64,000 bases of DNA, taken from the NCBI RefSeq assembly GCF_009731355.2, contig NZ_AP022810.1, positions 868,001 through 932,000 of the forward strand, in the 5' to 3' direction. How positions within the stretch are numbered: position 1 is the first letter of the stretch; each line of letters opens with the position of its first letter. The notes below the pieces were generated by a model. The model saw nothing but the letters and a program-made list of their open reading frames with translations, was not told where the DNA came from and ran no database searches. Origin of the DNA: Desulfuromonas sp. AOP6 (lineage in GTDB: Bacteria > Desulfobacterota > Desulfuromonadia > Desulfuromonadales > SZUA-540). Position numbers and translations under genes: made by a program. Positions 5,576 through 19,709 of this stretch are shown here, piece by piece.

Positions 5576-5854
5576 ATGGCTCTATGCGGAACCGATCAGG
5601 ACAAGGAACGCCTGATCAAACGGCTTAACCGAATTGAAGGTCAGGTTAGGGGCCTTTGCGGAATGATTGAGAATGACAGGGACTGCATAGAGGTTCTCCG
5701 TCAGGTCGTCTCTGTTTCCGGTGCTATCCGTGGGGTTTGGACCCAAATCGTTGGGGATCATTTGCGCGGCTGCATCCAGAACGCGACTCTCCAGAACGAT
5801 AATCGGGACCATCTGATTGAAGAACTCATAGAGCATCTCGGGAAAATGCGGTAG
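5576..5854 (+). CDS. CsoR/RcnR/FrmR-family metal-sensing repressor
   Basis: A 92-residue all-helical repressor of the DUF156 family (start MALCGTDQDKERLIKRLNRI). Cys37, His62 and Cys66 occupy the positions of the Cys-His-Cys copper site of CsoR; nickel/cobalt sensors of the RcnR/DmeR branch usually have Cys-His-His with an N-terminal His. Here the N-terminus has Cys4 instead. The following gene is a DmeF-like pump, so nickel or cobalt would be expected, which makes the sensor metal ambiguous. Metal binding would release the protein from the palindrome just upstream. Family is firm, effector uncertain. Confidence 0.9.
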   Translation: MALCGTDQDKERLIKRLNRIEGQVRGLCGMIENDRDCIEVLRQVVSVSGAIRGVWTQIVGDHLRGCIQNATLQNDNRDHLIEELIEHLGKMR

Positions 5855-5894
5855 AGGCTCTGGGCATAAGCAGAAATACGGGAGCAGGAATAAT

Positions 5895-6848
5895 ATGCAT
5901 GCCGACACGATAAGACAGATCCGTCATGAGCACGATTTCGACGGAGATGCCCGTGACAACGAAAATCGGACATTGAAAGTGCTCGTCCTCACCGGCATCA
6001 CGATGTGCGTTGAAATCCTCGCCGGGGTCTTGACTGGGTCCATGGCTCTTCTGGCCGACGGATGGCACATGGGGACCCATGCTTTTGCCTTGGGGATCAC
6101 CTATTTTGCCTACATAATGGCGAGAAGGTACTCAGGTTCGTCGAAGTTCGGTTTCGGAACCGGTAAATTCGGCATCCTGTCCGGTTATACCAGCGCATTG
6201 TTTTTGGGTGGCACGGCCCTTTATATGATTGTCGAGTCGGTTGGCCGTTTTTTCAACCCCGTAAGGATTTCTTTTGATGAGGCTATTCTTGTCGCGATAG
6301 TCGGTCTAGCGGTCAATGTTCTGAGTATCTGGATGCTTCACGGTAAAGAAACCAGTCATCACGACCACAGCCATGACCATGAACACGGACACCATCATCA
6401 TGACCACAATCTTCGGGCTGCCTACCTGCATGTTCTTGCCGATGCCTTGACCTCCGTCCTGGCTATTGTGGCGCTGGTGTCGGGGAAATTTTGGGGCTGG
6501 TCATTTCTCGACCCCGCTATGGGGATTGTCGGCGGAATTTTGATAGCCCGATGGGCATGGGGCCTGCTCCGGAGCAGCGCCTTCATCCTGCTTGACGGAA
6601 ATGGTGACAAGGACGTCCGGGATGCTGTGGTCCATGCGATTGAATCAGATGGCGACAGTGTTGTCGGCGACCTTCATATCTGGCCTCTCAATTCGAACGT
6701 TCTCGCGGCCGCGATAACCGTCGTCACCAAGGAAAAACGAAACCCATCGGAATATTGTTCTCGCCTATCACATATCGCCAGGCTGAAACACACGACGATT
6801 GAGATTCATAACTGTACAAATCAGCTTTGTGCCTGTAATCAGAGCTGA
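5895..6848 (+). CDS. dmeF: CDF-family divalent cation efflux transporter, DmeF-like (Co2+/Ni2+)
   Basis: A 317-residue cation diffusion facilitator with six membrane helices. The transport-site motifs are ADGWHMGTHA in helix II and HVLADALTSV in helix V. Between helices IV and V there is a His/Asp-rich loop (residues ~155-175) of about ten histidines. The overall layout and the sequence ALLADGWHMGTHAFALGITYFAY match DmeF-type cobalt/nickel exporters. It follows the repressor by 40 bases and starts the structural part of the operon. Expected role: export of excess metal from cytoplasm to periplasm by proton antiport. Confidence 0.88.
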   Translation: MHADTIRQIRHEHDFDGDARDNENRTLKVLVLTGITMCVEILAGVLTGSMALLADGWHMGTHAFALGITYFAYIMARRYSGSSKFGFGTGKFGILSGYTSALFLGGTALYMIVESVGRFFNPVRISFDEAILVAIVGLAVNVLSIWMLHGKETSHHDHSHDHEHGHHHHDHNLRAAYLHVLADALTSVLAIVALVSGKFWGWSFLDPAMGIVGGILIARWAWGLLRSSAFILLDGNGDKDVRDAVVHAIESDGDSVVGDLHIWPLNSNVLAAAITVVTKEKRNPSEYCSRLSHIARLKHTTIEIHNCTNQLCACNQS

Positions 6849-6875
6849 TGCCGGTTTGCCTGCTGAAATAGCAAT

Positions 6876-7337
6876 TTGGACATCATGACTCTTCCGTTTC
6901 GACATACGAGGACGAAATACTTCCTGGCTCCAATGCTGGTGGTGGCCTTCCTGTGCATTTCTCTCTGGCAGTCTTCCCATGTTCATCATCAACATGGTTC
7001 TGAAGACGGTGAGTTGACGCTCGGACACATCACGTTGGTGCCCGGGCCCCTGGACGGAAATCACGGCGACGCGGAACCCCACGGGGAGCACAGTCATGAG
7101 GCGCCGGATAAAACCGCGCATGTATATAAACACCAGACCAGCTGGAAAACTTTTCGCGGCAAGGCGGGTGGCGACAGTAAATTAAAGATGCTCGCAGTGC
7201 TCTGTGCGCGGGACATCCCTATCCCCGCCCCAGAAGCCCGCACCATACAAGCTCCCTATGTCTTTGGAGGCAGCGGCACTTGGATTGTCGGCCGTCCCCC
7301 CGCCCGCGCCCCACCCGTCATTTATAGTCTTGCCTGA
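6876..7337 (+). CDS. His-rich membrane-anchored or secreted protein of the metal operon
   Basis: A 153-residue protein with a hydrophobic N-terminal segment (YFLAPMLVVAFLCISLWQ) followed by a region rich in His, Asp and Glu (SSHVHHQHGSEDGE, then HGEHSHEAPDKTAHVYKHQ). The C-terminal third is proline-rich and ends in IYSLA. I do not recognise a named family. Position between the efflux pump and the HupE-like gene, plus the histidines after a membrane/signal segment, suggest periplasmic metal binding. A second ATG three codons in is an equally possible start. Confidence 0.65.
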   Translation: MDIMTLPFRHTRTKYFLAPMLVVAFLCISLWQSSHVHHQHGSEDGELTLGHITLVPGPLDGNHGDAEPHGEHSHEAPDKTAHVYKHQTSWKTFRGKAGGDSKLKMLAVLCARDIPIPAPEARTIQAPYVFGGSGTWIVGRPPARAPPVIYSLA

Positions 7338-7383
7338 TCCTTCACTTTATTCTTCCAATCGACTGTTTTTCAAAAGGAACGCT

Positions 7384-8097
7384 ATGAAAATGTTCAAAAA
7401 CTACCGGGCCGGAAGTGGCCTGACGTGGTGCTTTGTCCTGTTGGCGCTTGTCCTGGTTGGTGCGGCAGATGCGCTCGCCCACGGTGTGACCGCAGGTGAC
7501 AAAGGATATATTCAGGAAATCAGCGGTGCCATGACCCTGCCCTTTATTTATCTCGGAGCCAAGCATATGGTCACCGGCTATGACCATATCCTTTTTCTCT
7601 TTGGGGTTATTTTCTTTTTGTATCGCATCAAGGACATCGGCGTTTACGTCACCCTGTTCGCCGTAGGCCATTCGGTGACGTTGATCGCCGGGGTTCTGAT
7701 GAATGTCAGCGTCAGCGCCTACCTCATAGACGCCATCATTGGCCTGTCCATCGTTTACAAAGCACTGGACAACATGGGTGCGTACCAGCGTTGGTTCAGC
7801 TTTCAGCCCAACACCAAGTTGGCCACGCTGATCTTCGGACTTTTCCACGGGTTCGGCCTCGCCACCAAGATTCTGGAATACGAAGTGTCCGCCGATGGTC
7901 TGGTGACGAATCTGATCGCCTTCAATGTGGGCGTGGAGCTGGGGCAGCTCATGGCCCTGGGTCTGATCCTTATCGCCATGGGATACTGGCGACGCACCAG
8001 AGGATTCATGCGTCATGCCTATGGTGCCAACGTACTGCTCATGACGGGAGGTTTCCTGCTCGTGGGATATCAGTTGACCGGCTATTTCGTCTCCTAA
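7384..8097 (+). CDS. HupE/UreJ-type nickel/cobalt permease family protein
   Basis: The start is set at the ATG preceded by AAAGGAACGCT, giving 237 residues beginning MKMFKNYRAGSGLTWCFVLL. After a signal-like first helix ending LAHG, the protein carries the HupE/UreJ_2 signatures YLGAKHMVTGYDHILFLFGV, FAVGHSVTLIAGV and LIFGLFHGFGLATK. Histidine/aspartate residues in these helices are the presumed nickel or cobalt ligands. Beside an efflux pump, it probably adjusts metal movement across the membrane. Six to seven membrane helices are visible. Direction of transport is unknown. Confidence 0.87.
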   Translation: MKMFKNYRAGSGLTWCFVLLALVLVGAADALAHGVTAGDKGYIQEISGAMTLPFIYLGAKHMVTGYDHILFLFGVIFFLYRIKDIGVYVTLFAVGHSVTLIAGVLMNVSVSAYLIDAIIGLSIVYKALDNMGAYQRWFSFQPNTKLATLIFGLFHGFGLATKILEYEVSADGLVTNLIAFNVGVELGQLMALGLILIAMGYWRRTRGFMRHAYGANVLLMTGGFLLVGYQLTGYFVS

Positions 8098-9189: not shown

Positions 9190-9558
9190 TCACCAACCCT
9201 CATAATTCAGCAGGAGCTCACAAAGAATTTGGGTACACTCGTGATCCAGATTGTAAGTCAAGCCGCAGATTGACTTGATGCAGTCGATACGATCCACCAG
9301 TTCTTCACCCCAGACCGGATCATAAAAACTTACCATCGCCGCTATGAACTGCTTTACGCCACCACTTTCCCTGGCAAAAATGGCCTCAACCGCTTGCGGC
9401 AGAGGTTGTAGATCATTCTTGTCCTTAGCTGTAGCGAGTGTTCCCGGGCCGAACAGTTCGGGGCCGAGGTAGGCGACGCCACGTTTCCATGCATCAAAAA
9501 AAAGGACCTTTTTCCGTTTCGTCTGCTCCATGGCATTCAATACATTGTCCTTGCGCAT
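9190..9558 (-). CDS. Hypothetical protein, 122 residues
   Basis: The reading frame begins with ATG preceded by GAGAGGG on the minus strand and encodes a soluble, mixed-charge protein (MRKDNVLNAMEQTKRKKVLF...). Visible features are a central GPELFGPGTLA and a C-terminal helical part with three cysteines (DRIDCIKSICGLTYNLDHECTQILCELLL). No signal peptide or membrane segment is seen, and I recognise no family. It has a proper ribosome site but no obvious operon partner; the next minus-strand gene upstream is the methyltransferase fusion about 280 bases away. Confidence 0.5.
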   Translation of the reverse strand: MRKDNVLNAMEQTKRKKVLFFDAWKRGVAYLGPELFGPGTLATAKDKNDLQPLPQAVEAIFARESGGVKQFIAAMVSFYDPVWGEELVDRIDCIKSICGLTYNLDHECTQILCELLLNYEGW

Positions 9559-9842
9559 AGCCCTCTCTCAATAAGCTTCTGGTTTGTATGCACAGTATAT
9601 CACTGGTCTCTGGACTAGAAACGCCCCCAATGACAAGATCGTGAGCGTTTCTGATAATGCGCAATTTTTATACACAAATTTCCAGGCGAATTTTATATGC
9701 CGCCTCAACAAAGAAGGGGATTCGAGAAGAACCCGGCACAAAGAGATGGCAGCCTCTCCAAGGTGGAGAGATAATTGCCGAGATAATTTGTAATTGTATT
9801 CACTCAAGCCACTACTTCAACTGAAGCGCTCACTTACACTCC

Positions 9843-10862
9843 TCAGGTTTCCCCTGGGGGGATCTCGGGAGCCCCATTGCTTGCTGATGGCGCATGCTCC
9901 TCGATCTCTTTAGTCTTTCCGGCGAACAGTGCGCGGGTTTTGAAAGCATTGACGGTCATGGCAATCGCCGCCACTTCCTCCATTTCCGCTTTCGTTGCCC
10001 CGGCCTGCCTCGCACCTGCGAGGCCGAAGTCCGTTCAGGGATCACATCCGGCGGCAAGTGCCGCTCCCAAGGCGACCAGTTGTTTTGTTTTATGGTTGAG
10101 GACACCGGGTGCCAAGGCGGCATCCATGAACTCCTGAAACTTATCCAGCGGATCAGCCATGTCCCGCTCCTCGCAAAGGTTATTGGGCGATGTCCCGGCC
10201 GTAGGCTCTTTCTTCATGGTGACGCAATACAAATCGCGCGGAAGACTTCCCTCCGTCAGGCGCTCAACTCCCAGGGTGGTATAGCCCTTGGCCAGACTTC
10301 GGATCTTTTCCGTGGTGAAGAAGTGGACGACGAAGTCGCCTATCTGGTAGATATCCTCGCCCAGATGTGTGCCAAACCGGTAATGCTTATCCCGGTCGCT
10401 GCGCACGGAATAGACGACAAGGCCGCCAGGCCGCAACACTCGGAGAATCTCGCCGAGGATAAAGTCAATCTCTGCGGTCGATAGCTCCATGCACAGCAGC
10501 ATGTGTGAGTAGCAGGCATCAAAGGAAGCATCGGGGAAGGGGAGAACTTGCCTGACATCGTGAACCCGGGAGACGACCATCGATGACACGCCGGCCGTTG
10601 CAGCCTTCTCCAGGGTGGTGGCCACGGCGGCATCCGAATAGTCCAGTGCCGTTACGTGAAGATCGTTGCGCGCTAAAAAAATGGTATCTCGTCCTTGGCC
10701 ACAGCCTAGTTCCAGCAGCGACCGCACAGCCTCGCGTCGGAACAGTTCCAGGGACTTTTTCGCAAATTCGCTGGGTCCCTGTCCGAAGAAGGCCATCTCC
10801 TCAATGAACACCTTGTTCCACTGAGATTTCTGTTCGATTTTTTGTCTATTCTCTGACGTCAT
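9843..10862 (-). CDS. SAM methyltransferase fused to carboxymuconolactone decarboxylase (AhpD-like) domain; probable selenoprotein with in-frame UGA
   Basis: Residues 1-~215 form a class I SAM-dependent methyltransferase: motif I LLELGCGQGRD at ~49-59, then ALDYSD and FDACYSHMLLCMEL. After a ~20-residue linker, a CMD domain starts near residue 235 (MADPLDKFQEFMDAAL). The frame meets TGA at 10035-10037 directly after AAGCDP. It then continues in frame for 63 codons with CMD-like sequence (TDFGLAGARQAGATKAEMEE, then VAAIAMTVNAFKTRALFAGK) to a second TGA at 9843-9845. Reading the first TGA as selenocysteine gives a 339-residue protein with Cys-x-x-Sec where AhpD/CMD proteins have their redox Cys-x-x-Cys. 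A SECIS-like hairpin follows the codon. The CMD part also has its own GAGGAG ribosome site and ATG (10158-10160), so a separate CMD protein may be made. A conventional annotation would truncate this gene. Substrate of the methyltransferase is unknown. Confidence 0.8.
10007..10024 (-). promoter_or_regulatory. Putative bacterial SECIS hairpin
   Basis: On the minus strand, directly downstream of the in-frame TGA, GCCTCG and CGAGGC form a six-bp stem around the loop CAGGTG. The loop GG lies 19-20 bases after the TGA. Bacterial SECIS elements are short stem-loops within the coding region with a G in a small apical loop roughly 16-37 bases after UGA, so both geometry and loop fit. Seen by eye; no folding energy was computed. 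Confidence 0.72.
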
Positions 10863-11242: not shown

Positions 11243-13246
11243 ATGAGCGAGAAAAACCGTTCCTATCGAGTTCAGGTCCAATCGGACTACTTGAATAAAA
11301 TCACCCGAGCTGATCCGGTACAAGCACTAGAAGAATTAATTTGGAATAGCCTGGATGCCGACGCAACCACTGTGGAGGTTCATCTTGAATATAACGACCT
11401 TGATACTCTCTCAGCCATCATCGTCAGTGATAACGGTTTTGGAATGCCTTATTCTGAGGCTCCGGGTTTGTTCCAGAACCTGGGCGGATCCTGGAAAAGG
11501 TTAGGAGGCAGGACCAAAAAGGAAGGGCGTTTTCTTCACGGCCAAGATGGACGAGGCCGGTTCAAAGCCCTAGCGCTCGGGCTTGGGGCTGAGTGGGAGG
11601 TGACTTACGAAAAAGGAGCGGAGCTTTGGACCTATAAAATCAAGATTACGGCAGACGATATTCAAGAGGTCGTTATTTCTGAAGAGAAACCTGCTCCTGC
11701 TCAGAAAAGACGAGGTGTGCTCCTCACCATTACCGAACCACATAGAGACTTTAAAATATTGACCAGCGACGAAGGAATTCAAGCTCTTAATGAGACGTTC
11801 GCCCTGTACTTGACTGATTATCCGGCTGTCTCGATCCAAGTTGATACAAAAAAGTTGAACCCGACCAGCGTGATCGCCACCCGGCATTTTGCCAACCTAA
11901 GCGACATTGTTGAGGGCGGAAAGCATTATCCTGTGCGGCTTTCAGTGATTGAGTGGAAGACGTCGACCAACCGGTCATTCTACCTTTGCAATGAAAGAAG
12001 ACTTCCACTGATTCGTGTTTCGCGAAGACTCCAAGCTGGCAACTTTCAGTTTTCGGCCTATCTCTCCTCAGATTTCATTACAAAATTTCAAAAGGAAAAT
12101 ACATTGGATTTTTGTGAATCCAATCCCTTCATCAGTAAGGCACTCCTCGAAGCCGTTCAAAATATCAAGGATTATTTCCGCGAGCGGGCAGCCCAAGAGG
12201 CGAAGACATTGGTGGAAGAGTGGAAAGAAGAGAGGATCTATCCCTATGAGAGCGAAGCCGCAACGCAAGTAGATCGGGTTGAGCGACAGGTCTTCGACAT
12301 TGTAGCTGTTAATGTCGCTAGGTATATGCCTGACTTCGCCTCGACTCCTGCCAAGAGCAAGGCTCTCCATCTAAGGTTGCTTCGTCACGCCATGGAGCAG
12401 AGCCCCGAGGAGCTTCAATTCATCCTTGAAGAAGTATTGAAACTGCCGAAACGAAAGCAAGCGGAATTGGCAGACCTGCTCCGTAACGTGTCCCTGTCAG
12501 CCATCATTAGCGCCGCCAAAGTTGTCGCAGATCGATTGAAATTTCTGGATGCTTTGGAGAGTATTCTGTTCGATGCAGAGTTCAAAAAACATCTCAAAGA
12601 GCGGTCACAGCTCCATGGAATCATTGCACAAAATTGCTGGCTATTTGGTGAAGAGTACAACCTCTCTGTAAATGATCAGTCGCTCACAGAAGTGCTTAGA
12701 AAACATAAAAAGCTGATAGGCGAAGACGTAATTATTGATGAGCCCGTGAAACACATTACGAAAACCACTGGCATTGTCGACCTCATGGTGTCTAGGGCAA
12801 TCCGATGCCACCGGGCAAACGAGCTGACGCATTTGGTCGTGGAATTGAAAGCACCTAAGGTTAAAGTCGATCGGAAAGAGATTCCACAGATCGAAGAATA
12901 TGCATTCTCGATTATGGAGGACGAGAGATTCAGGAATTTAAATACAAGATGGGTATTCTGGGTTATCAGTGATGATTTTGGAGATTACGCAAAAAATCGG
13001 ATACAGGATTCATCTGGCCTAATCCATCAAAAGAATAGTATCTCCATTTTCGTGAAGACATGGGCGCAAGTGATTAATGAGAACCGTGCGCGACTCCAAT
13101 TCTTCCAAGAGAAGCTAGAGTACCAAGCAGATAAAGGTGCATCAATAAAACACCTGAGGGACCACTATGAGGAGTTTATCCAGGGGGTAATTACCGTGGA
13201 AGAAATTGAAACTCAGGATGATGTTGAAACTGAAACAACAACATGA
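11243..13246 (+). CDS. GHKL-type ATPase with C-terminal PD-(D/E)XK nuclease-like domain, probable defence protein
   Basis: A 667-residue protein. The N-terminus has Bergerat-fold motifs: EELIWNSLDADA (N-box, Asn ~35), VSDNGFGM (DxGxG, ~62-68) and HGQDGRGRFKAL (~99-110), as in MutL/Hsp90/MORC-like ATPases. A long middle helical region follows. Near residues 510-550, GIVDLMVSRA, then LVVELKAPK, then IPQIEEY give the D...ExK...Q pattern of PD-(D/E)XK nucleases, similar in form to Shedu-like (DUF4263) domains. The C-terminus is acidic and low complexity. The stop overlaps a small ORF (ATGA), which in turn overlaps the OLD ATPase gene. Probable role: ATP-regulated DNA cleavage in phage or plasmid defence. 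Motifs are seen directly; function is inferred. Confidence 0.8.
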   Translation: MSEKNRSYRVQVQSDYLNKITRADPVQALEELIWNSLDADATTVEVHLEYNDLDTLSAIIVSDNGFGMPYSEAPGLFQNLGGSWKRLGGRTKKEGRFLHGQDGRGRFKALALGLGAEWEVTYEKGAELWTYKIKITADDIQEVVISEEKPAPAQKRRGVLLTITEPHRDFKILTSDEGIQALNETFALYLTDYPAVSIQVDTKKLNPTSVIATRHFANLSDIVEGGKHYPVRLSVIEWKTSTNRSFYLCNERRLPLIRVSRRLQAGNFQFSAYLSSDFITKFQKENTLDFCESNPFISKALLEAVQNIKDYFRERAAQEAKTLVEEWKEERIYPYESEAATQVDRVERQVFDIVAVNVARYMPDFASTPAKSKALHLRLLRHAMEQSPEELQFILEEVLKLPKRKQAELADLLRNVSLSAIISAAKVVADRLKFLDALESILFDAEFKKHLKERSQLHGIIAQNCWLFGEEYNLSVNDQSLTEVLRKHKKLIGEDVIIDEPVKHITKTTGIVDLMVSRAIRCHRANELTHLVVELKAPKVKVDRKEIPQIEEYAFSIMEDERFRNLNTRWVFWVISDDFGDYAKNRIQDSSGLIHQKNSISIFVKTWAQVINENRARLQFFQEKLEYQADKGASIKHLRDHYEEFIQGVITVEEIETQDDVETETTT

Positions 13247-13440
13247 ATGGGTGTATCTATAATAAGAATGTTACGGGGAAAAGGATGGGTGACCGAGGAA
13301 AGGAAAGGAGAATTGGAGTGGTGCCCTACAGAGCTGTTCGTTCTTCGGCCAAGAAATGCGGGTTTATGAAAATGTCAGCGAATTTCACCTGGAAATACAT
13401 CTCCGACTGGCACGCAATAGGCTGGGGCCTTAGGCAATGA
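13243..13440 (+). CDS. Small ORF bridging the GHKL ATPase and Gabija-like genes
   Basis: A 65-codon frame whose ATG overlaps the GHKL stop (ATGA) and whose TGA overlaps the ATG of the OLD ATPase gene (ATGA), so it fills the whole gap with four-base overlaps at both ends. The peptide is basic, begins MNGCIYNKNVTGKRMGDRG and ends SDWHAIGWGLRQ. No family recognised. The double overlap is what one expects of a coupled operon gene, but a random frame is possible. If real, it would tie the two flanking systems into one transcript. Confidence 0.42.
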   Translation: MNGCIYNKNVTGKRMGDRGKERRIGVVPYRAVRSSAKKCGFMKMSANFTWKYISDWHAIGWGLRQ

Positions 13441-15416
13441 AGATAGAGAAGGTTCTCATAAAGAATTTCCGCTGCTTCGGTCCGAGAGGGACCAAGATCA
13501 AGCTGGAACGCTGCGTCACCGCGTTCGTTGGCGGCAATGGCTCAGGCAAAACGACAGCCTTTCAGGCGCTGTTGCGTCTTTTCGGCGTCACACCTACGCA
13601 GCGAAACGTTCGGCGTCAGGACTTCCATCTGCCAGCCGACCAGCAGGAGCTTCAGTCGGGGGCGATTCTCTCGATCGAGGTGTTCTTCTCCTTTCCAGAG
13701 GTGGAAGGCCTTGATGAAGATGCCGCCGAGGATGCGGTCCCGGAATTTTTTCTCCAGATGGCCGCTTCCGCTCCGGGCGCTGCGCTAAAGGCAAGGATGA
13801 GGCTGCAGGCGACGTGGACCGATGACGGCACGCCGGAAGGCAGCATTGAGGAAGATCTCCGGTGGATTACAACGCTTGATGACGATTTCGAGTGGGACGA
13901 CTGCAAGCGGGTGCAGGCCGTGGAACGCGGCTCCATCCAGCTCATTTATGTCCCGGCTGCGCGCGACGCCTCCGGGCAGGTGACCGCCTTGCTCAAGGGA
14001 CGCCTTTGGCAGGCCGCGAAATGGTCCGATCGGTTTCGGAACGGCAGCGCGGCAAGTGCCCAGGAGATTCAACGGCAGTTCGAGTGTGAGGAGCCTGCGC
14101 GTTTTGTGATTGAGCGCCTTTCCAGGCGCTGGAAGCAGGTCCACGAAGCGGATACCGACTCCACGCCCATCCTACGCCTCGTCGACAGCCGGTTTGAGGA
14201 CCTAGTCCGCAAGGCCGAGTTTGCCTTCTTTCCCGACGAGGCAGGGCAGGAGCGCTCGCTCGCGGACCTCAGCGACGGTCAGCGCTCTCTCTTCCATATC
14301 GCGCTCACGGCAGCGACCCTGGAAGTCGAGAAGGACGTATTCGCGCAGCCTGCCGAGGAGAGTTCGTTCGATCAGGAGAAGCTGCGGCGGACAAGCCTGA
14401 CATTTCTTGCGATCGAAGAGCCCGAGAACAGCCTCTCCCCCTTCTTTCTCTCCCGCATCATCGCACAGGCGCGGGAGATCGGCGCCTTGTCATCGGCGCA
14501 GGTCGCGCTATCAAGCCATTCGCCGGCGATCCTCAGCCGCATAGAACCGAAGGAGGTACGGTACTTCCGGCTCAACTGCAAACGGTGTGCCTACGTCCGG
14601 CGGCTTACGCTGCCGAAGGATGATGAAGAAGCTAGCAAGTATGTCCGCCTCGCCATCAGGGCCTACCCTGAGCTTTACTTCGCCCGCTTCGTAATTCTCG
14701 GCGAGGGTGATTCCGAGCGTCTCGTAATCCCCCGGATTGCTGAAGCTATGGGCGTTCAGCTTGACTCATCCTTCGTGCCGATCGTGCCTTTAGGCGGAAG
14801 ATATGTCAGCCATCTCTGGAGACTTCTAAACGACCTCCGCATCCCTCACGTGACCCTCCTTGACCTTGACCTTGGAAGGGCGCACGGCGGCGCTGCCCTG
14901 ATTGCTGATGTGGTCGCCAAACTGGGAGAGATAGACAACGATCTTAGTGAGAACGCCATCGTCCAAGCAGGTACAATCGATCCCGACAATGTGGATGCCA
15001 TCGAGGACAGCACCCTACTGGATGAGGGCGAGGATAACGACTGGTTGCGAGCCCTGAAAGAGGAAGGGATATTCTTCTCTTTTCCACTAGATATAGATTT
15101 TGCGATGCTGAGAGCTTTCCCTGAGGCCTATCAGCACCCCAACCCCGGGGGCCGCGGGCCGCGCGGCGGCACCTCCGTAATTCGCGAGAAAAAAGCTGTC
15201 ACCCTGAAGACCGGCGGCGATCCCGAGCTGTACGATGAATACTACGATGAGTTCAAGTGGTATCCGTATTTGTTTCTTAACCGAAGCAAGCCGGAGACGC
15301 ATCTCGCCGCGCTCGCTCGTATTGAAGATGACGACCTCACCGGAAACGCACCACCCGAGCTGACAGCGTTGATCGAGCATCTGATGGAAGTGCTCGACGT
15401 TGAGGATGATGAATGA
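13437..15416 (+). CDS. gajA: OLD-family ATPase/TOPRIM endonuclease, GajA-like
   Basis: A 659-residue ABC-type ATPase: Walker A GGNGSGKTT (~32-40), signature LSDGQRSLF, Walker B LAIEEPENSLSP and H-loop ALSSHSPAILSR. A TOPRIM domain follows, with FVILGEGDSERLVIPRI (catalytic Glu) and VTLLDLDLGRAHG (DxD). This is the architecture of OLD nucleases and of Gabija GajA, a nucleotide-sensitive DNA-nicking enzyme. The next gene is a UvrD-like helicase overlapping by four bases, exactly the GajA-GajB order. It is longer than the studied GajA (about 580 residues), so it may belong to a related OLD-helicase branch. GC and codon use are higher than in the genes further right in the island. Confidence 0.85.
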   Translation: MKIEKVLIKNFRCFGPRGTKIKLERCVTAFVGGNGSGKTTAFQALLRLFGVTPTQRNVRRQDFHLPADQQELQSGAILSIEVFFSFPEVEGLDEDAAEDAVPEFFLQMAASAPGAALKARMRLQATWTDDGTPEGSIEEDLRWITTLDDDFEWDDCKRVQAVERGSIQLIYVPAARDASGQVTALLKGRLWQAAKWSDRFRNGSAASAQEIQRQFECEEPARFVIERLSRRWKQVHEADTDSTPILRLVDSRFEDLVRKAEFAFFPDEAGQERSLADLSDGQRSLFHIALTAATLEVEKDVFAQPAEESSFDQEKLRRTSLTFLAIEEPENSLSPFFLSRIIAQAREIGALSSAQVALSSHSPAILSRIEPKEVRYFRLNCKRCAYVRRLTLPKDDEEASKYVRLAIRAYPELYFARFVILGEGDSERLVIPRIAEAMGVQLDSSFVPIVPLGGRYVSHLWRLLNDLRIPHVTLLDLDLGRAHGGAALIADVVAKLGEIDNDLSENAIVQAGTIDPDNVDAIEDSTLLDEGEDNDWLRALKEEGIFFSFPLDIDFAMLRAFPEAYQHPNPGGRGPRGGTSVIREKKAVTLKTGGDPELYDEYYDEFKWYPYLFLNRSKPETHLAALARIEDDDLTGNAPPELTALIEHLMEVLDVEDDE

Positions 15417-17254
15417 GCCTCGTGCGACCTGAAGATTGGAGGCCGCAAGGGGTCGCTGATCTTGAGCCGCGCGCATGGGAGGCGCTGCTGCAGACGGAGC
15501 GAAGCGTTCTCGTTACTGCGGGGGCAGGGGCTGGGAAAACGGAGTTTCTGGCGCAGAAGGCAACGTACCTTCTCCAGACCGGCTTGTGTCCTGCGCCGAA
15601 ACGCATACTTGCAATCAGCTTCAAGCGCGATGCAGCTCGCAATCTGGCAGAACGGGTAGCGAAGCGCTGTCCGCCTGAGCAAGCCCGGCGCTTTAACTCC
15701 TATACCTTCGATGCATTCGCGAAAAGTCTTGTGGACCGCTTTCGCGCGGCGATTCCAGAACCCTACCGTCCTCCGGCCGGCTATCGCATCGTGACGCCGC
15801 GCAGGTTGGACTACGAGGATTTTCTGAACACCCACAATTTCCGCGGTGTGAACACCCAGCAGCTAGAACGTGCGATAGCTAGGGAGCGATTGCCGGTTGC
15901 TAATGCAGGCTCGGAGCTTCAGCGCGCGGTCGCGAAGTATTGGCGCGTCCAATACTTCGAATATGACCATGTCCTGCTGTCATTCCCAATGATCAACCGG
16001 CTCGTCGAACTGCTGATTCGGGAGAACCCGTCAATCCTCAACGCTTTGCGTCTCACATATCCAGTCGTGTTCCTGGACGAGTTTCAGGACACAACCTCTG
16101 CCCAGTTTCAGTTCCTGCGTACCGCTTTCGATGGCAGCAATGCCATCTTAACAGCCGTTGGGGATGACAAGCAGCGCATCATGGTGTGGGCGGGCGCTCT
16201 GCCTGACGCTTTCGCACAATTCGAGCAGCAGTTCGATGCGCAACGGATTTCGCTGATTTGCAACTGGCGCTCGCATAAAGACCTTGTCCGGATTCAGCAC
16301 GTCATCGCCAGCAGGATCGATCCCACCGTCGAGGAGCCTGAGGCTCGCGCCGACCGACTGGTTGATGGAGACATTGCGGCGATCTGGGAGTTTGCGAGCG
16401 AGGAGGAGGAAAGTGATTGTCTCCCGCAATGGATCGAGCGCGAGGTCCAGGCGGGAAATATTGAACCGCATGACATTGCCATTCTCGTGCGCATGCGGGC
16501 TGATGAAGTGGAGAGGCAGCTTTCGCCCGCATTCCAGGCGCACGGTCTCAGGTTGCGGAATGAGGCACGTAACGTGGGCGATATTGCCATCCAGGACCTA
16601 CTTGGAGAGGATCTGACGCAGATACTCCTGCACCTGCTGCGTCTTGGAGCGGAGGAGAGAAGCCCTGAGAATTGGAACGCCGCCCTGCGGGACTTGCAGT
16701 TTCTCGAAGCCCTCGATCCAGCCGATGAGGCTGGACTGCAGCGCTTGCAGGAACGCCTGCAAAGGTTTGTTCGCAAGATGCGCCGGACGTTCCGGCACCT
16801 TGACTCCATACCGGAATCTGTAACCGAAGCCGCGCATGCGGCTCTTGATTTCATCGGGTCCGAAGTTTTGCGTCGAGCTTTCCCCTCTTATCAACGTCAG
16901 CCTGATTTTGATCGTGTCTGGAACGGGTTCTTGCTGTTCCTCGGAGAATGCCTCGTGCACGCTGAAACTTGGACAAACGCGCTCGATAAATTCGAGGGGC
17001 TAGGTCAGGCCACACTCATGACGATCCACAAGAGCAAAGGGCTCGAATTTCATACAATGATATTCTACGGGCTCGACAATCAGACATGGTGGAGCCTAAC
17101 GCCCGGCCGCATGGAAGAATTGAACTCCTTCTTCGTGGCATTTACCCGCGCGAAGCAACGGGTATTTTTCACGATGTGCACCGAACGCGGTCAGCCTGTG
17201 AGTTGGATTGAAAACCTTCTTGCTCCCGCTGGAGTTCGGCGCGTCCATTTCTGA
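15413..17254 (+). CDS. gajB: UvrD/Rep-like superfamily 1 helicase, GajB-like
   Basis: A 613-residue SF1 helicase with all motifs visible: TAGAGAGKTEFL (I, ~35-46), VVFLDEFQDTTSAQ (II), AVGDDKQRIMVWAGA (III), NWRSHKDLVRIQ (IV), LMTIHKSKGLEFHTMIFYG (V) and FFVAFTRAKQRVFF (VI). In Gabija, GajB senses DNA ends and activates the GajA nuclease. Its start overlaps gajA by four bases (ATGA). The length exceeds that of the studied GajB (about 500 residues), as seen also for the partner. It is followed within 60 bases by an Mrr-like nuclease on the same strand. Confidence 0.86.
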   Translation: MSLVRPEDWRPQGVADLEPRAWEALLQTERSVLVTAGAGAGKTEFLAQKATYLLQTGLCPAPKRILAISFKRDAARNLAERVAKRCPPEQARRFNSYTFDAFAKSLVDRFRAAIPEPYRPPAGYRIVTPRRLDYEDFLNTHNFRGVNTQQLERAIARERLPVANAGSELQRAVAKYWRVQYFEYDHVLLSFPMINRLVELLIRENPSILNALRLTYPVVFLDEFQDTTSAQFQFLRTAFDGSNAILTAVGDDKQRIMVWAGALPDAFAQFEQQFDAQRISLICNWRSHKDLVRIQHVIASRIDPTVEEPEARADRLVDGDIAAIWEFASEEEESDCLPQWIEREVQAGNIEPHDIAILVRMRADEVERQLSPAFQAHGLRLRNEARNVGDIAIQDLLGEDLTQILLHLLRLGAEERSPENWNAALRDLQFLEALDPADEAGLQRLQERLQRFVRKMRRTFRHLDSIPESVTEAAHAALDFIGSEVLRRAFPSYQRQPDFDRVWNGFLLFLGECLVHAETWTNALDKFEGLGQATLMTIHKSKGLEFHTMIFYGLDNQTWWSLTPGRMEELNSFFVAFTRAKQRVFFTMCTERGQPVSWIENLLAPAGVRRVHF

Positions 17255-17309
17255 GGTTTTTCATTTTTTGTCCATAGTCTCTGCGTTACTCCATTACTTG
17301 AGAATCAGT

Positions 17310-18170
17310 ATGAATAGCCTCACGCACATCGAAAAACAGAAGCTTGAACGGGAGCTAAGCATGGGTGGCGGTTATGTCCTCAACTTCTCCAATCGCTCGT
17401 TCGAGGAGTTTTTCCGTGAGGTGGTGGGGGTTGAGATATACGCCCCCCCTTATAACTTGAACTCAGGCTCGAAGGCGAACCGATTGCGGGCATTCTGGCA
17501 AGTTTCCACTGATGAGCAACTCCGATTGTTTCTCAAAGGTCTCATCGAAGGATGGGACATCTACTCTGGTAGGCCGATCTCGGATTCAGCATGTGCTCTG
17601 CTCGATGGCATACTGAAAAGACTCGGCAGCAACTCAGGAACTTCCGTCTCCCCTCGCGAAGTGATGACAATCTGCCTCACGGAAGAGACCTCAAGTAAGC
17701 TAATATCCCGATTGCTTCACCTCACATCACTTCCCCCCCAAAGACGTGGATACGAATTCGAGATTTTTCTCAAGGAGTTGTTCAGCGCCTATGGCCTTGC
17801 ACCCCGGGCCTCCTTTCGGCTCACGGGAGAACAAATAGATGGTAGTTTCGTTATGCACAATGAAACCTACCTACTTGAAGCCAAGTGGCAGAACTCCCCG
17901 ATTAGCGCGGCAGACCTACATACATTCGAGGGAAAACTGGGGGAGAAGGCATCTTGGTCGCGAGGTGTTTTCGTCAGTAACAGCGGATTCTCCACCGACG
18001 GTCTCCATGCCTTCGGGAGGGGCAAGCGTCTGATCTGCATGGACGGGTTCGACTTGTCCGAGATGCTGAGAATGAAGCTCTCTTTCGTCGATGTAATGGA
18101 AGCGAAAGTAAGGAGAGCTGCAGAAACGGGGTGTCCATTTGTGCCTGTGCGGGATCTCTTCATGGGATGA
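17310..18170 (+). CDS. Mrr-like restriction endonuclease with defence-type N-terminal domain
   Basis: The start is taken at ATG giving MNSLTHIEKQKLERELSMGG, 286 residues; an upstream in-frame start would run back into gajB. Residues ~20-120 contain YVLNFSNRSFEEFFREVVGV, then GSKANRLRAFWQ. I recall this FSNRxFxxFF...GSKxxRLRxF pattern from the N-termini of abortive-infection type proteins. Residues ~150-260 are Mrr-like: YEFEIFLKELFSAYG, GEQIDGSFVMHNETYLLEAKWQ (the D...ExK nuclease site), then GVFVSNSGFSTDG. It probably cleaves foreign DNA. Close position after gajB suggests it belongs to the same defence cluster. Confidence 0.78.
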   Translation: MNSLTHIEKQKLERELSMGGGYVLNFSNRSFEEFFREVVGVEIYAPPYNLNSGSKANRLRAFWQVSTDEQLRLFLKGLIEGWDIYSGRPISDSACALLDGILKRLGSNSGTSVSPREVMTICLTEETSSKLISRLLHLTSLPPQRRGYEFEIFLKELFSAYGLAPRASFRLTGEQIDGSFVMHNETYLLEAKWQNSPISAADLHTFEGKLGEKASWSRGVFVSNSGFSTDGLHAFGRGKRLICMDGFDLSEMLRMKLSFVDVMEAKVRRAAETGCPFVPVRDLFMG

Positions 18171-18623
18171 GGACGATGACTCAAGCGTGTCTGTAAGGGA
18201 AACCCTGTCCTATAAAGCACCACTTCCAGAACATGAAAACCCCTCCTGGCCATTCGTTTGGTGTTTTCTCATTTGGCAGGTCTTCCAGAACAAAGGTCAA
18301 ATCCACCGAATTTAGCCTTTCATAAGAAATAGGACGACGAGATCTCAAACAGCCTGAATTTTGATCTGAGATTTCTCCTATGGGAGGTTAGGAGCGTCCT
18401 ATAAGTGGAGGCTTGCAGAAGGGGGCATGCAGGTAATGCCTGAAAACTAGGCCCGAGAAGCTTACGAACCGCAGTTGCCGAAGTGCTTGGGGCTTCGGTT
18501 TTCTGGTTTTTGAACTGTCTACTTTTAGGGAAGTTTACGGAATCAGGATACGTCATCGCACGGTTTCACATAGTCCACAGGACGCTACTTTGAGAAAGAA
18601 ATTTGGAGCTAAAGGATGGGGAA
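18171..18623. other. Non-coding stretch between nuclease and CHAT genes
   Basis: No protein gene recognised. Small hairpins are present: CCGAAG/CTTCGG at 18478-18499 followed by a T-rich stretch, which may be a weak terminator, and TAGGAGCGTCCTA-type short palindromes near 18390. Base composition shifts here from GC-rich (Gabija side) to more AT-rich, so a junction between separately acquired segments is plausible. Confidence 0.35.
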
Positions 18624-19709
18624 ATGTCATTTCTTGATATGTACCGGCGCAATGTGCAACGGAAGAACGAAGAAATTGCTAAATTCCAAAAAGACAAGGC
18701 AGGCGAACAGAAAAAACTAGCCGAACTGTCGAGGAAAATTAATGCTGCGTCCCAGGCCATGAGCCGTGCTAGTAGCCAAAGTACGATCCAGAGTAAGCTT
18801 CGTGAAATCCAACGCTATCAAGATGATGCTGCAAGGATAGAGAAGAAAATTTCTGACTTTGAAGAAAAGATTGCCAGGAAGAGAAATGAATTGAATCAGG
18901 AGGAAAAAAAGCTCGCCCGAGAAGAGGAGCAGGAGATTAAGAAACGTCAGCGCGAGGCGGACAAACAAGCCCGTACACATGAAAAAAGGATGAAGGACAT
19001 CTCTGGAACTTTGAGGCGGCATGATCAATTACATATCGAAACGCAATCAGTATTGGAGCAACTCAAACAGTTGCCAGAAAAAATAGTTGTTCTATATCTT
19101 GCAGCGAACCCAATAGATCAGAGCCATCTACGTTTGGATGAAGAGGCTCGGGCTATTGCTGAGATGATCCGAAAGGCCAAGCATCGGGATGCTGTGAAAT
19201 TAGAATCATGTTGGGCCATTCAGCCCCTAGATGTCCTTCAAGCTCTCAACGAATTTCAACCGGCCATTGTTCACTTTAGTGGCCATGGGTCAGACCAAGA
19301 TGAAATCGTTTTCCAGGATTTGCATGGCAATGCAAAATTAGTTAGTAAGGATGCAATTGTTCAGACAATGATGGCGTCTTCTGAGAATATCAGGCTTGTA
19401 TTTTTCAATACATGCTATTCACGCAATCAGGCCGAAGCCGTTGTGGAGCATGTGCAAGCGGCAATCGGGATGAAGACATCGATCGGCGATAGCGTCGCTA
19501 GGGTATTCGGGGCGCAATTTTATTCAGCTATCGGATTTGGCCTCCCGGTTAGTAAGGCCTTCGATCAGGCAAAAGCCGCAATGATGCTGGAGGGAATACC
19601 GGAGGAAGATACCCCAGAGCTTTTTGTCAAAACCGGACTAAATGCTGATGAAATAATCCTTGTACGCCCACCGGAAGGTGTTGTGGCGGAATCGGAAGAT
19701 TTGGAGTGA
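18624..19709 (+). CDS. Coiled-coil protein with C-terminal CHAT (caspase-like) protease domain
   Basis: The start is the ATG preceded by AAAGGA seven bases upstream (MSFLDMYRRNVQRKNEEIAK), 361 residues; a TTG seven codons earlier is less likely. Residues ~10-150 are a highly charged coiled coil. From ~153 a CHAT domain follows: IVVLYLAANP, then AIVHFSGHGS with His221, then VFFNTCYSRNQA with Cys264, the expected His-Cys dyad, and SIGDSVARVFGAQFYSAIG. CHAT proteases act in bacterial gasdermin, CRISPR-Craspase and other defence systems. No gasdermin or sensor gene is recognised beside it, so it may be a stand-alone effector. The substrate is unknown. Confidence 0.8.
   Translation: MSFLDMYRRNVQRKNEEIAKFQKDKAGEQKKLAELSRKINAASQAMSRASSQSTIQSKLREIQRYQDDAARIEKKISDFEEKIARKRNELNQEEKKLAREEEQEIKKRQREADKQARTHEKRMKDISGTLRRHDQLHIETQSVLEQLKQLPEKIVVLYLAANPIDQSHLRLDEEARAIAEMIRKAKHRDAVKLESCWAIQPLDVLQALNEFQPAIVHFSGHGSDQDEIVFQDLHGNAKLVSKDAIVQTMMASSENIRLVFFNTCYSRNQAEAVVEHVQAAIGMKTSIGDSVARVFGAQFYSAIGFGLPVSKAFDQAKAAMMLEGIPEEDTPELFVKTGLNADEIILVRPPEGVVAESEDLE

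Follow-up and report, generated by a model that had tools for sequence, protein, structure and literature searches.

A full-length double-selenoprotein gene of the MduS family in Desulfuromonas sp. AOP6, with a possible nested second product

The reverse strand of the window (the whole 64,000-nucleotide stretch of Desulfuromonas sp. AOP6 DNA analysed here) carries what we consider, with a probability of about 90%, to be a full-length double-selenoprotein gene of the MduS family, in both its identity and its anatomy. From its N-terminus, the predicted protein would have a SAM methyltransferase joined by a flexible linker to a CMD/AhpD domain bearing the motif Cys-x-x-Sec (U276), and its C-terminal tail, likewise flexible, would end in Sec-Gly-Val (U340). 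The reading frame opens with the ATG at 10860-10862 (reverse strand) and reaches, after 275 codons ending in LAAGCDP, the TGA at 10035-10037 (UGA 1); beyond it there are 63 further codons of CMD sequence before the TGA at 9843-9845 (UGA 2), which is followed in frame by GGA GTG TAA, placing the end of the coding region at 9834 and not at 9843 (Table 1). The Pfam CMD model PF02627 matches residues 240-306, straddling UGA 1 (2.1e-15; 56.9 bits against a gathering cut-off of 23), and this score, together with the site Cys273-Asp-Pro-Sec276, places the region in the CMD/AhpD family.

Queried without its last two residues, the protein matches the NCBIfam model NF045649 ("2X_seleno_MduS") over profile positions 2-336 of 338 with 631.7 bits (curated cut-off, 380), residue 340 falling inside the alignment, and the whole-profile match in its own genome (2-338) spans 2 TGA codons; membership of the MduS family is practically assured. 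The gene has the two Sec codons of an MduS, one in the CxxU motif of the CMD domain and one in the tail, with a SECIS element after each UGA, and shows no departure from the family in the order of its parts, in the CxxU site, in the number of Sec residues or in the full-length match. An earlier, preliminary description of this DNA had held the architecture to be rarely noted; NF045649 already covers it, and a 2026 review (PMC13188914, citing Haft and Tolstoy 2025) tabulates MduS with the motif CxxU and 2 Sec residues. Among the loci scoring above the cut-off in the phylum sample, nine of the ten have both UGAs within a whole-profile match, and the tenth (L155) has both in its own reading. The model also accepts a relative without CMD and with a single Sec (L059, 436 bits) and one without any Sec (L060, 389 bits), which may be of use to curators.

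Table 1 Features of the mduS locus, in window coordinates, with the evidence for each.
Feature	Position	Strand	Basis
mduS coding region, 342 codons + TAA, Sec at codons 276 and 340	9834..10862	-	NF045649 match, translation
Class I SAM-methyltransferase domain, residues 1-221	10200..10862	-	Methyltransf_11/25 at residues 50-150; AlphaFold2; METTL6 8owx Z 24.6
Variable disordered linker, residues 222-234, bearing the putative internal ribosome-binding site	10161..10199	-	pLDDT <50 at 222-235
Putative internal Shine-Dalgarno AGGAG, 6 nt ahead of the internal ATG	10167..10171	-	Homologue comparison
Proposed internal start ATG (Met235), for a separate CMD product of 108 residues with both Sec	10158..10160	-	ATG in 12/13 and GTG in 1/13 homologues
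CMD/AhpD-like domain, residues 235-323, redox motif Cys273-x-x-Sec276	9894..10160	-	PF02627; NF041537 AhpD part, 126 bits; model helices
UGA codon 1, read as Sec276	10035..10037	-	Homologue alignment; Cys at the same place in ArsM-fused L180
SECIS 1, GCCUCGC-AGGU-GCGAGGC, loop 17 nt after UGA 1	10007..10024	-	Folding, placement, conservation
UGA codon 2, read as Sec340, tail Thr-Sec-Gly-Val-stop	9843..9845	-	18/18 homologues with UGA + 2 codons + stop; within NF045649
SECIS 2, GCUUC-AGUU-GAAGU, loop 20 nt after UGA 2, past the stop codon	9814..9827	-	Five inner pairs kept in 18/18
True stop codon TAA	9834..9836	-	Sequence; TAA, TAG or TGA here in all homologues

Judging from the comparison of sequences, both UGAs would very probably be decoded as Sec, each with a SECIS element of its own. 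The preliminary description had ended the gene with a real stop at UGA 2; in our reading this is the second Sec codon, and in all the tail-bearing homologues (n=18) the frame closes with a stop after just two more codons (G-V, G-R, G-T or S-R). A hairpin loop lies 16-20 nt after the tail UGA, and the five inner pairs of its stem (counted outward from hand-set loops; MAFFT misplaced L064 in that region) are kept in 18/18, all five positions showing compensatory changes, most of them contributed by L064, the most divergent sequence. The greater part of this hairpin lies past the stop codon, where the pairing is not explained by protein constraint. Restricting Sec to UGA 1 and taking UGA 2 as an ordinary stop could be argued from the common use of UGA as a stop and from the TAA only two codons on; this is highly improbable in view of the constant two codons and stop, the compensated hairpin outside the coding region, the persistence of the tail UGA in homologues without a CMD domain, and the inclusion of UGA 2 in the curated NF045649 model. 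The second Sec, whose SECIS element lies beyond the stop codon, cautions against taking at face value a "real stop" that follows a recoded UGA; an annotation made without the curated model would miss 67 residues together with both selenols.

SECIS 1 and SECIS 2 both fall within the bSECIS ranges set out in PMC13188914: a loop of 3-9 nt on a stem of 4 bp or longer, a G within the first two positions of the loop, a spacing of 16-37 nt and an energy no higher than -7.5. Of the 48,477 TGAs of the fetched loci, 4.7% have a hairpin behind them that passes a strict SECIS-like rule (1.5% when the stem must be at least 6 bp), and every tested CMD UGA and every tail UGA has one; the homologues being related, these frequencies were not multiplied into one p-value. 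Single hairpins have ordinary RNAfold z-scores (-0.2 to -1.6), so the case for the SECIS elements rests on placement and conservation.

UGA 1 is almost certainly read as Sec. It occupies the second position of the CMD/AhpD CxxC site (the fourth of Cys-Asp-Pro-x), and stands at the identical codon in 13/13 methyltransferase-CMD homologues, including lineages about 50% diverged; the ArsM-fused homologue L180 has Cys at the position of Sec276. In the alignment with homologues 64-89% identical, conservation continues through both UGAs, and dN/dS against the closest homologue is 0.29 between the UGAs and 0.27 in the methyltransferase part, with values of 1.5 and 2.2 for the other two frames between the UGAs, which look unconstrained. 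A hairpin with G in its tetraloop and a stem of 6-7 bp lies exactly 17 nt after the CMD UGA in every homologue tested. The complete 3.27-Mb host genome has selA, selB, selC and selD, as a bacterial selenoprotein requires: one strong tRNA-Sec (77 bits), and selA (620 bits), selB (395 bits) and selD (359 bits) as adjacent genes around 2.47 Mb, SelD (L022) being itself a selenoprotein with its TGA read through (SAGUAAKLG). The rival view that UGA 1 truly terminates the gene or arose by mutation, with a decayed or overlapping CMD remnant behind it, has nothing in its favour except the TGA itself, and is scarcely credible against the codon shared by 13/13 homologues, the downstream dN/dS and the Sec machinery of the host. 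Two more CMD selenoprotein genes occur in the same genome, L010 (2547118-2547291) and L011 (829756-830007), with the sites CPDU and CAFU.

The preliminary description had proposed Sec at the CxxU redox site for UGA 1, and homologues, SECIS and dN/dS bear this out; Pfam confirms the 63 further in-frame codons of CMD-like sequence and the SAM methyltransferase on the same frame ahead of them, and we agree that gene callers would cut the gene at the UGA. It had named two findings that would tell against it, the absence of selA, selB or selC from the genome and relatives ending at this codon: selA, selB, selD and tRNA-Sec are all present, and the relatives continue with conserved sequence. The hairpin that it drew with a GG in a six-base loop, 19-20 bases after the UGA, is real; its details differ, the loop starting 17 nt after the UGA on a 7-bp stem (GCCUCGC/GCGAGGC) with the tetraloop AGGU, and the fold with 6 bp and the six-base loop CAGGUG being an alternative. 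Its observation was correct but incomplete, and its interpretation right for UGA 1 and wrong for UGA 2.

Directly ahead of the CMD domain of the window gene stand AGGAG, 6 nt and an ATG (10158-10171), a putative internal ribosome-binding site from which a second product, a free CMD with the tail (108 residues, both Sec), may be made from the same mRNA, a proposal towards which we lean slightly. A Shine-Dalgarno (SD) sequence of at least 5 nt at a spacing of 4-10 precedes the CMD start codon in 12/13 homologues, and the remaining in-frame ATG/GTG codons of these genes have one in 12/207 cases (5.8%). Homologues differ in their linker peptide and yet share the SD, whose phase and spacing shift in L058, L057 and L140, a variation that speaks against a simple effect of Glu-Glu coding; the internal start of L144 is GTG, hence Val; and GAG, the minor Glu codon in L029 and L058, is yet used there at the internal SD. 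The SD is missing from L030, whose methyltransferase part is frameshifted. In synonymous recoding, a 5-nt SD survives in a share of draws that ranges from 11% to 92% between genes, and because codon choice alone can keep it in this way the signal is suggestive, not decisive. This recoding result, the frequency of GAG in several of the genes, the resemblance of the cassette to a once-separate gene, and L059, which retains the SD and ATG though its CMD is gone, would all suit an AGGAG that is left over from an old fusion or is a by-product of Glu-Glu codons, with no internal initiation, a reading that we place a little below an even chance; it accounts poorly for the contrast between 12/13 and 5.8%, for the SD kept beside a varying linker and with shifting phase and spacing, for the GTG of L144 and for the minor GAG codons. 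If internal initiation takes place, the free CMD could serve as an extra redox partner or enter mixed CMD oligomers, and a second selenoprotein would be nested within a fusion gene, an arrangement for which no report was found in the literature searched.

A tree of 78 methyltransferase domains places the Sec proteins in one clade of 20 (support 98/94), comprising: 12 methyltransferase-CMD(U)-tail(U) proteins; five methyltransferase-tail(U) proteins without CMD (L059, L160, L063, L064, L066); and three proteins with neither CMD nor tail Sec (Desulfobulbaceae, L060-L062). Three CMD-less members branch first, and the simplest reading of this topology is that the Sec tail came first, that the CMD was inserted ahead of it, and that the CMD or both were later lost in some lines; several independent losses could also have given this pattern. 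Taken jointly with the internal start, MduS would be a nested dual-product gene (342 and 108 residues), that is, one ORF with two ribosome entry sites and two SECIS elements serving both products, in which the tail carries the older selenium site of the methyltransferase and the CMD cassette between them is an insertion, lost again in some lineages; to this combined reading we give even odds. The gene is sporadic, scoring above the NF045649 cut-off in 9/395 sampled genomes of the phylum, and two genomes of the host's genus do not have it. The internal start, the CMD-less single-Sec relatives and the shared cassette described below are absent from those parts of the MduS literature that were examined, and may be new.

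The CMD and tail share 41-49% identity with the C-terminal region of arsenite methyltransferases that are selenoproteins (L178, L179, L181 and L182, found with NF041537, L182 scoring just under its cut-off). These arsenite methyltransferases likewise end in a Sec tail (e.g. GGT-U-PR-stop), and in two genomes an ArsM-like gene is followed, some 200 nt on, by a small free CMD selenoprotein of the CYPUMEHY type (L226, L231). The arsenite methyltransferase/AhpD proteins of NF041537 (3 Sec) share with the window protein the CxxU CMD, the SECIS placement and the C-terminal Sec tail, and differ in that their methyltransferase is an ArsM with a Sec of its own. The methyltransferase/UXPK-star double selenoproteins (NF047649) have, by their name, a Sec tail without CMD, as do the five CMD-less MduS relatives; their methyltransferase is ArsM-type, and the window protein scores 31.7 bits against their cut-off of 460. 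The free CMD/AhpD-like selenoproteins (GSU3128 family NF041047, CYPUMEHY type) share the CxxU CMD but lack the methyltransferase and, in the CYPUMEHY type, the C-terminal Sec tail as well. The window methyltransferase itself is not an ArsM (PRK11873, 24.2 bits against a cut-off of 263), and it stays below the cut-offs of the TehB tellurite methyltransferase models (32.8 against 218 and 31.6 against 219.5 bits) and of the corrinoid-protein-associated CpaM (NF043040, 62.4 against 180 bits); the whole NF041537 model is not reached either, its best match being to the CMD part (126 against 510 bits). The AlphaFold2 model has a pLDDT above 90 over most of the methyltransferase, about 70 in the CMD and below 50 in the tail, which is predicted to be disordered and receives no confident position, and the fold search returned a generic class I methyltransferase only (METTL6 8owx, Z 24.6), the structural neighbours including METTL6, a heterocycle methyltransferase and a disulfide-to-thioacetal enzyme (4nec).

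That the CMD and tail cassette is also fused to selenoprotein ArsM hints at metalloid or soft-metal chemistry, and we tentatively put forward a metalloid or soft metal, as its thiol or selenol adduct, as the substrate of MduS. The methyltransferase would use SAM to methylate a soft nucleophile, with a metalloid, or a metal or metalloid bound to thiol or selenol, as the likeliest candidate; the mobile C-terminal selenol could act as ligand or resolving nucleophile, delivering or reducing the substrate; and the Cys-Sec pair of the CMD might recharge the tail, much as the internal redox pair recharges the Sec tail of thioredoxin reductase. The animal thioredoxin reductase ends in -GCUG, a mobile C-terminal Sec followed by Gly, and has an internal redox pair. 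MduS likewise combines a mobile C-terminal Sec-Gly with an internal redox pair, but it has no flavin domain and is not a relative of thioredoxin reductase, and the analogy is mechanistic only. An organic substrate, or action beside a corrinoid protein, with the CMD and Sec giving AhpD-like peroxide protection, is a similarly tentative proposal: CpaM is the best curated match below cut-off (62 bits), and the fold neighbours METTL6, the heterocycle methyltransferase and 4nec agree with it; against it, there is no corrinoid protein among the immediate neighbours examined, and this cassette is also seen fused to arsenite methyltransferases or encoded next to them. As the cassette is common to arsenite methyltransferases, one substrate panel could test the uncharacterised Sec methyltransferases.

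No neighbour is common to the MduS loci in general, and the window copy has no conserved operon. Five loci (L168, L169, L170, L172 and L174) have a DJ-1/PfpI gene after mduS, two of them (L168 and L174) with a further methyltransferase gene ahead of mduS; both are absent beside the window copy, and the neighbourhoods of the methyltransferase-only relatives (archaea, actinobacteria) gave no clue to the substrate. Downstream of mduS there is a 122-residue ORF (9193-9558, reverse strand) without a Pfam match and without a match in the other fetched loci. Near mduS lies a metal cluster (5576-8097, forward strand) encoding a metal-sensing repressor, a His-rich cation efflux protein and a HupE/UreJ-type protein. 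On its other side, mduS is adjoined by a Gabija-type anti-phage system (11243-18167, forward strand), made up of GajA (13437-15416; PADLOC, 790 bits) and GajB (15413-17254; 721 bits), with an HSP90-like ATPase gene (11243-13246) ahead of them and an ORF for an Mrr-type endonuclease (17208-18167) after them, all on the forward strand; a CHAT-domain protease-like protein is encoded beside the Gabija genes (18603-19706, forward strand).
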